Shown: positions 43,694 through 45,372 of the stretch, piece by piece
How the letters are laid out: each line of letters opens with the position of its first letter
Numbering within the stretch: the stretch's first letter is position 1
From: Leptodontidium sp. MPI-SDFR-AT-0119
Taxonomy: Eukaryota > Ascomycota > Leotiomycetes > Helotiales > Leptodontidiaceae
DNA length: 64,000 nt
Assembly (NCBI GenBank): GCA_020726505.1
Contig: JAHLEZ010000016.1
Location: 1,736,001 to 1,800,000, forward strand
Reading direction: 5' to 3'
The notes under the pieces: generated by a model
Seen by the model: the letters and a program-made list of their open reading frames with translations, nothing else
What the model was told of the DNA's origin: nothing
Database searches by the model: none
Program-made: the position numbers and the translations under genes

Positions 43694-45372
43694 TCATATG
43701 GCATACTTTCGTGTCCATTCTCGGGCCGTTGATTCGTAGCGTGCTCGATCGTGTTTGTAGACGTGTGCAATTTCTGGTACTAGAGGAGGGTCGTCCTTGT
43801 CGTCGATATTGTTTGGGGAGCACAAAATAGAGCAAATCGAAAGTAAAACTAGGATATTTAGCTTTGAACACAAAATTGAATAATTAACCTCTACCTTTCC
43901 CAATTGTGAGACCCGGAGACCATTGATCTCTTAGAATGTCCAAGCAAATTGACCCGTTGCTGTTGATGTTGGGGTGGTAGATTCTTGTTGTGAAACTGAT
44001 TTTGGGAGGTTTGAATGGGTAGTCAGTTGGAAAGATGACCACCAGGAAGAACACTCCTCCTGAGTACGGACTGTCGTACTATACAGATATCAGATTCGTT
44101 CACAGGTGGAAAGAGGCATACCCACAGGACCCATCATGGTTGCCTGCCAATGATACTGTGATGAAGTTAGTTGCAAAACAAACAAGTTATCAGATTGAAT
44201 AAATACCAAATCAGTGTCACTGATTGGACCTGCAGCAACACTACTCGGGGGGTCGCGCTCCAGGTCTTTCCATTCCTTGTGTATTCTCTTTAAAGATGCG
44301 CTGAGGAGAGTCGTTTCGGCTACTTTTAATGGTTGCACTTCTCCCAAGGACGAAGCTTGATCCCTTTCTTCGTCAAACCCCACAAGTGTTGAGAATGATG
44401 CTGACGTAAGTCGGTGAAATCGGATCAACTCAGGCTCGTACAACGGTAAGTTAAGAACTGAAATGGTAGAAATTTGAGTAAGGCTAAGTCCAGACAGGAC
44501 TGACCAAGCACGAGACCTCGTGGTCGACACTGACGAGATCGCATCGACCTCTCCATGCTGCACTCTGCTGTACACTCTTGAAGTCTGCAGGACCACGTTG
44601 AATGCATGTTCAACCACGACATATTGACTTGTCACTGGCGAGATTTTGTCATTGTCGTCCACGGCGGTGTTCGGCATATGCGACTCATTACCACGCTGTC
44701 TATCAAGATTTTGGTCTGGACATTGCTGGAGAGCGTCATCGGTGTCGGCATTGAGGTTCAAGTTGCTAAGATCCTCAAGTTCAATCGCACCTTCCGGCAT
44801 GTCGAGGCTATCTAGCCGCTTTCCCATGTCTGCGTCCAGCTCGACTTCTTCCTCGATGTGCTGCTGCAAGTCATGAGCAGCTTCTCGTGCCTCAACATCT
44901 GAGCGACTACCACGATCCGAATTAGATTCGACCAAGCGGGGAAGCTTCACACTCACCACTGTATAATTTGCAGCAGGAGTGTCAACGATGTCTTCTGCCT
45001 TTGCAATTGATTCACAAGACGTACAACACCAGGCTCCGCCCTTGCCCACGTCACTCGATTTAAATATGAGTTATTGCTCCTGCTTGATAACGGGGTAACC
45101 AGTGTATCCAGCTCTGAAAACACCAGCACAGTTCGCGTCAACATAACCACTATATCGTCAAGCTGAATCATTGCCGAACGACCTCCACGTATTCTTGTCG
45201 CTTTCTCAATGAACACTTGAAACGCACTGAAAATAAGTTTGATATCTTCCACCTCCGTTAGGACATCCGAGATCGACTTGGGCGCATCTTTGATCTTCCC
45301 TAGGAGATTCGCGACCTGAGTTGCGGCGGTGAGGATTCCGACAATTGAAGCGGTGACGCTGAGAGGATCCAT
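43694..45372 (-). CDS. STAND-type fungal N-terminal domain fused to an E2 ubiquitin-conjugating enzyme
   Basis: Five exons (45372-44957, 44906-44207, 44155-44126, 44078-43895, 43848-43694) sum to 1485 nt, 494 residues. The start [19 protein letters not shown] opens a helical domain (about 1-320) of the PigL_N/fungal N-terminal type that normally heads NACHT, NB-ARC or ankyrin STAND proteins. Its later half ([32 protein letters not shown]) matches the same family. Between them is an acidic linker ([20 protein letters not shown]). Residues about 341-494 form a complete UBC4/5-like E2: [59 protein letters not shown] with catalytic Cys at 43944-43946, [33 protein letters not shown]. No NACHT or NB-ARC domain is present. 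All E2 key residues are intact. Introns are 46-51 bp. The third donor is GTGGGT. Confidence 0.85.

Follow-up and report, generated by a model that had tools for sequence, protein, structure and literature searches.

In the 64,000-nt window of Leptodontidium sp. MPI-SDFR-AT-0119 (Helotiales) analyzed here (contig JAHLEZ010000016.1, positions 1,736,001 to 1,800,000), the minus strand from 45372 to 43694 carries a five-exon gene whose predicted product, spliced from the sequence, has 494 aa and zero internal stops. The product joins, in this order, a HeLo-like (PigL_N-type) helical head, a conserved "AWSxLSGLSLxxIS" segment (the LSGLS segment), and a ubiquitin-conjugating enzyme (E2) domain of the UBC4/5 class. 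The segment is common to E2, RhoGAP, Cdc24, and G-alpha fusions, and the RhoGAP, G-alpha, and E2 domains of these fusions have mostly lost their catalytic residues, whereas same-genome RhoGAP and G-alpha controls mostly keep them. We propose, at a little short of an even chance, that the gene is a switch without a NOD-like receptor (NLR), in which the head would give the output and the C-terminal module would act as bait or docking surface.

Structure and conservation of the fusion gene

The sequence-only reading had described a single spliced gene with the domain join inside a continuous 700-nt exon, and both points held. The four introns (50, 51, 47, and 46 nt) are all GT-AG; the splice sites were picked from the sequence, and those 3' of Met216 match the public protein P0001. 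The join of linker to E2, with the E2 profile beginning at residue 346, sits within exon 2 (Table 1). P0001 is a model of 279 aa identical to residues 216-494; it starts at the internal Met216 and therefore lacks the head, but it still has the conserved segment joined to the E2. The HPN codon pattern (43976-43962) occurs once in the window, with 0.01 occurrences expected by chance.

Table 1. Coordinates of the fusion gene, its HET-domain neighbors in the window, and related loci elsewhere in the genome (C, contig; L, locus).
Feature	Position	Strand	Remarks
Exon 1	45372-44957	-	Start codon; HeLo-like (PigL_N-type) head, residues 1-138
Exon 2	44906-44207	-	Exactly 700 nt; head end, linker, conserved segment, E2 residues 346-372; holds the domain join
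Exon 3	44155-44126	-	
Exon 4	44078-43895	-	
Exon 5	43848-43694	-	
Head end, residues 139-174	44906-44801	-	Start of exon 2; PigL_N match range
Conserved segment, residues 245-305	44590-44408	-	Alignments, five own-genome loci, scores against shuffled sequences
UBC4/5-class E2 domain, residues 346-494	44287-43694	-	Exons 2-5; UQ_con match
HPN codons, residues 417-419	43976-43968	-	
Catalytic Cys codon TGC, Cys427	43946-43944	-	Equivalent to Cys85 of UBE2D2
Intron 2	44206-44156	-	51 nt, in frame without stop; position inside the E2 looks conserved in relatives
HET-domain open reading frame	39940-41703	+	PF06985, 1e-25
HET-domain open reading frame	52049-53848	-	PF06985, 1.1e-30
Segment locus	C69:765k		RhoGAP protein P0129
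Segment locus L029	C1:1144k (C1:1143300-1148500)		HeLo-like head and LSGLS segment, then CDC24 calponin, RhoGEF, and PB1 in successive frames
Segment locus L028	C16:322k (C16:321500-326500)		Head and segment; frame ends shortly after MTLYKLAVLG
Segment locus	C1:2047k		Tail without any Pfam family match
L022	C12:3.51M		HeLo and UQ_con in one frame
L023	C12:1.37M		HeLo and UQ_con in one frame
L024	C51:25k		HeLo and UQ_con in one frame
L026	C1:5.34M		E2 frame

Relatives were collected by one whole-protein and two N-terminal-part searches, and their counts are lower bounds. The whole-protein search scored 7981 candidates, with the best 120 of 535 matches listed, and could not return proteins as short as the ordinary 147-aa UBC4; one of the N-terminal-part searches scored 7996. 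Looking for the same domain pair in fungal genomes, as had been suggested, was productive. Relatives were found in Lasiosphaeria, Cercophora, Curvularia, Thermoascus, and Squamulea, genera of the Sordariomycetes, Dothideomycetes, Eurotiomycetes, and Lecanoromycetes, and further ones on contigs of probably environmental origin. Composite-query scoring against shuffled controls covered 60 proteins, or 58 without the window's own P0001 and P0002, and the segment is followed by the E2 start in at least 15 of these 58 (P0011, P0015, P0016, P0021, P0026, P0027, P0131, P0153, P0158, P0162, P0166, P0167, P0168, P0170, and P0171). In five of the 15, a single protein has the head as well (P0011, P0015, P0016, P0021, and P0027). 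With 15 further occurrences of the segment-to-E2 join, five of them in proteins that include the head, the fusion is, as judged from these comparisons, real and no gene-model artefact. Two separate head-to-tail genes were ruled out, since the join lies within one exon and recurs in the other sequences. At the place of intron 2, a valine (GTN codon) continues in 12 of the 15 relatives (11 aligned, P0021 by eye), as would be expected if the conserved intron had been left unspliced in those models, and P0011, P0015, and P0026 run on into the E2. P0026 may derive from a transcript, because its contig of 1736 bases carries a complete E2 without introns.

The full UBC4/5-like E2 with HPN motif and catalytic Cys at 43944-43946 that had been read from the letters was borne out. 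Pfam UQ_con matches residues 346-488 at E 1.6e-45 and 154.6 bits, over profile positions 1-139 of 140, and HPN (417-419) and Cys427 are both intact. The nearest PDB chains by sequence are Ubc4 and UBE2D. Identity to fungal UBC4 is about 80% (highest 82%), while among nine other Pezizomycotina UBC4s identity to the Gyalolechia sequence is 90-100%; in sequence terms, the window E2 is a faster-evolving copy. It differs at 12 of the 99 columns invariant among 17 UBC4/5 rows (L10W, C21V, S22A, G27S, F31Y, I37M, I54V, A96G, S100G, D112S, P115D, and D117P), where the calls D112S, P115D, and D117P hinge on the alignment of an insertion of about five residues near the D117 loop. N77, C85, L86, D87, F62, P95, L97, L104, and S108 are kept, as is CLDIL, and the E2 starts without an initiator Met. 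F62, P95, and A96 are presumably RING-contact residues of UBC4/5-class E2s, and at these positions F62 and P95 are kept and A96 is changed to G. The window E2 should be able to accept ubiquitin. In a tree of E2s, built to ask whether the E2 fusion arose once or several times, the four fusion rows need 3 changes and 0% of 200 bootstrap trees give one, with 1 of 18 inner branches well supported.

The head is of the HeLo-like type that fungal NLRs carry, and to that extent the earlier assignment to a NACHT or NB-ARC receptor-type head stands. The PigL_N match of the window copy (residues 1-174, E 3.2e-4, 20.6 bits) is, however, below the curated cut-off of 27.2, so the profile search of the translation gave a strong E2 and a weak head. 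PigL_N reaches 35.7 bits in the relative P0016 and E<=0.001 in 20 of 50 family members scanned, and the exon 1 stretch has homologues in P0134-P0143, P0145, and P0146. SesA was rejected as the head family at E 0.046 in the Pfam scan of the window protein. The first helix (positions 3-25) has 0 charged residues; its best 19-mer mean is 1.57, and a later helix reaches 1.63. The Pfam scan of the whole window protein gave no NACHT or NB-ARC match (E<=1; four families listed), no C-terminal WD40, ANK, or TPR repeats (E<=1), and no amyloid-motif families. The fusion protein is not an NLR, because it has neither NACHT nor NB-ARC.

A modular family with losses of catalytic residues

Among 50 family members, Pfam found RhoGAP in 9, UQ_con in 5, G-alpha in 3, Arf in 2, and CDC24 calponin in 1. 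A segment-composite search of the genome itself returned five loci including the window gene (Table 1), and E2, RhoGAP, and Cdc24 versions coexist there. The head carries a set of signaling domains (E2, RhoGAP, the guanine nucleotide exchange factor Cdc24, and G-alpha) with a segment of its own, and for this reason a receptor whose nucleotide-binding part has given way to an E2 is not how the gene is best described. Two members drew attention apart from this. At L028, MTLYKLAVLG is what we take to be a Ras-like start, and the frames after it look HET-like by eye; this may be a broken family member. P0128 has head and segment, its C-terminal part gives no Pfam match at E<=0.01, and its residues from about 300 to 420 give, by eye only, the impression of a ubiquitin-like fold.

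The arginine finger of RhoGAP and the switch-II Gln of G-alpha are assumed here to be catalytic residues. The arginine finger is absent from 14 of 16 fused RhoGAPs, with A, Y, F, K, S, or T in its place, and kept in P0123 and P0124. These 16 are all the PF00620-listed proteins from the N-terminal-part searches, aligned to two RhoGAP stretches; a seventeenth RhoGAP row, P0149, was excluded because the model does not align at the finger. All four fused G-alphas (PF00503) have the switch-II Gln replaced, by T in P0130, P0160, and P0164 and by W in P0155, the site being located by alignment in P0130 and P0160 and read from the sequence in P0155 and P0164. The catalytic Cys is lost in three of the four readable fused E2s, the window copy being the exception. 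Ser stands in place of the Cys in P0015 and P0026, whose RING-contact residues are also changed, and P0011 is a truncated, degenerate E2 without the Cys that may be a gene-model error; P0122, with the E2 tail only, was left out of this count.

Same-genome controls gave the opposite picture. Of seven readable RhoGAP loci that lack a head or segment match, six keep the Arg (L050, L051, L052, L055/L061, L056/L062, and L058), although the alignments of L056/L062 (E 0.18) and L058 (E 0.48) are weak; L053/L059 (one locus), L057, and L063 are unreadable at the finger and stand outside the count. The remaining locus, L060 (near C12:2576039), has Phe at the finger and a RhoGAP that resembles the fused ones, and the own-genome head and segment searches gave no head match near it. 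The switch-II Gln is kept at all four G-alpha loci read, a control that leaves out one sub-cut-off G-alpha match. Several fused sequences are close relatives, so the catalytic losses are not independent counts; their pattern suggests that, at the family level, the module has a non-catalytic role.

Possible functions and genomic surroundings

The switch with a bait or docking module is favored because the domain is kept but the catalytic residue lost in three unrelated enzyme modules. In such a switch, the N-terminal helical bundle would be the output part, acting by oligomerisation and/or membrane attack, and the C-terminal E2 would be a built-in copy of a core signaling protein that serves mainly as a binding surface. 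Engagement of this surface, or tampering with it, would release the head. RhoGAP, Cdc24, and G-alpha modules would serve the sister proteins likewise, usually once their catalytic residue had been lost, while in the window copy with its intact site catalysis may add to the signal. The predicted model of P0016 has a helix at 146-177, and structure comparison put MLKL among the best-scoring rows for the head. Four-helix domains of Chlamydia IncA and Cbl reach the MLKL score; these two are regarded as a common helical arrangement, and the MLKL match is weakened as well. Foldseek returned zero matches for the P0016 model against PDB at E<=0.001, the P0015 model is of moderate quality, and an NCBIfam search of P0015, P0016, P0128, and P0133 gave zero matches.

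The strong, main rival for the window copy is an active effector, a reading we consider quite possible though clearly below an even chance. Here the HeLo-like head would recruit or cluster a working UBC4/5-type E2 at a membrane or signaling assembly, where the E2, charged by the ubiquitin-activating enzyme (E1), would act with RING ligases to ubiquitinate local targets or itself. The window copy keeps the core catalytic residues and most E1 and RING contacts, and a ubiquitin-transfer effector of the kind first suggested is therefore possible for this copy. Other E2 fusions of the same genome agree with it. HeLo (PF14479, profile from position 41 on) and UQ_con lie in one frame at L022, L023, and L024, and L026, where a separate-frame exon looks by eye like the HeLo exon of these three, is likely a fourth HeLo-E2 gene. 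All four E2s keep HPN and Cys, so death-type heads have met intact E2s more than once; these loci are not among the LSGLS-segment loci. The suggestion fits the family less well, in that three readable relatives lack the Cys (P0011 doubtful), P0015 and P0026 having Ser and altered RING contacts, and most RhoGAP and G-alpha domains joined to this head are catalytically broken. Further points against an active effector are A96G, S22A, and the insertion beside the D117 loop in the window copy itself. Bait and active E2 could also hold together.

Two further explanations are less likely. If a duplicated UBC4 had been joined by chance to a common head and its functionless E2 were being lost, this would account for the truncated P0011 and for P0121 and P0133, which have head and segment but an E2 start not above shuffled controls. 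Such a decaying by-product is improbable given a fusion that spans Leptodontidium, Lasiosphaeria, Cercophora, Curvularia, and Squamulea (in Thermoascus, P0122 adds only an E2 tail to head and segment) and a window E2 with an intact active site and still about 80% identity to UBC4. Poorer still are the prospects of two products, in which the head would lie outside the main protein and a start at Met216 would yield an E2 with a short N-terminal extension (279 aa). The start of P0001 fits this, but relatives conserve head and segment in a single frame, five models hold head, segment, and E2 start, and the short model too keeps the segment-E2 fusion.

Taken further, the switch would make the window gene the E2 member of an ascomycete class of NLR-free immune-type receptors, with a HeLo-like head, an LSGLS segment, and copies of signaling hubs (E2, RhoGAP, Cdc24, and G-alpha) as folded, often dead bait; we regard this generalization as doubtful but possible. 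In a bolder form, the UBC4/5 function of this fungus may be carried by the fused protein, because a protein search and two codon patterns revealed no further UBC4/5-class E2 in the assembly. Many other E2-like loci are present. UBC4 is placed next to glutaryl-CoA dehydrogenase in some fungal models, and no UBC4 was found within the 9.9 kb examined at that locus here; the missing ordinary UBC4/5 may be an assembly gap.

A Pfam scan of the window covered 10 of its 192 open reading frames of >=70 aa and two transposon frames. The HET domains on both sides, as the sequence-only reading had them, are real, but as evidence for function they are weak and were downgraded, because HET genes are very numerous in this genome (at least 150 matches over the cut-off, scored from 828 candidates). 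An inverted-repeat DNA transposon (45740-47566; 1.8 kb, with 50-nt arms that are 94% complementary) lies about 370 bp upstream of the fusion start codon; it matches DDE_1 and, below the cut-off, HTH_psq. Pieces of a polyketide synthase (SAT, ketoacyl synthase, and acyl transferase) and a tryptophan dimethylallyltransferase at 98-2787 and 19341-20558 are probably part of a secondary-metabolite cluster.

Comparison with known systems

In searches of the open-licence PMC literature, we recognized no description of an E2 fused to a HeLo-like or HeLo domain, although domain databases may list the architecture, and the word "ubiquitin" does not occur in the main text of PMC4986451, PMC10197012, and PMC12881547 as far as it was available. 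The family PF17111 is named HeLo-like in PMC9815663. With these HeLo-like (PigL_N) proteins the fusion appears to share an N-terminal MDPLS-type helical bundle, an uncharged first helix, the profile match in relatives, and MLKL among the best structural rows; it differs in its LSGLS segment, its C-terminal E2, and a profile score below the cut-off. If the proposed switch is correct, fungal HeLo-type proteins would extend past NLRs and amyloid-gated executors to a modular set with copies of signaling enzymes.

Compared with UBC4/5 (UBE2D) E2s, the fusion has the full domain and its conserved motifs, and it is set apart by a long N-terminal extension, the changed invariant columns, and about five extra residues. 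The HeLo-E2 proteins of the same genome similarly place a death-type helical head before an E2 with HPN and Cys, but their head belongs to a different Pfam family and their E2, with a longer C-terminus, is 31-36% identical to a UBC4. If the proposed switch is correct, HeLo-like and HeLo would be two head families by which fungal death-type domains are linked to the ubiquitin system. Loss of the catalytic Cys, as in ubiquitin E2 variants (UEV) and other pseudo-E2s, is seen in P0015 and P0026, and the Cys is present in the window copy.

Integrated decoys, such as CHK-2-like kinase domains, have been proposed for Sordariales NLRs (PMC12258605). Like the integrated decoys of plant and fungal NLRs, the present proteins fuse a copy of a core signaling protein to an immune-type output domain. 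With broken fused and intact unfused copies in one genome, the integrated-decoy idea would become directly testable in fungi. In contrast to those decoys, there is no NLR core here, and the copied proteins are E2, RhoGAP, Cdc24, and G-alpha, the catalytic residue often being absent from the copy.
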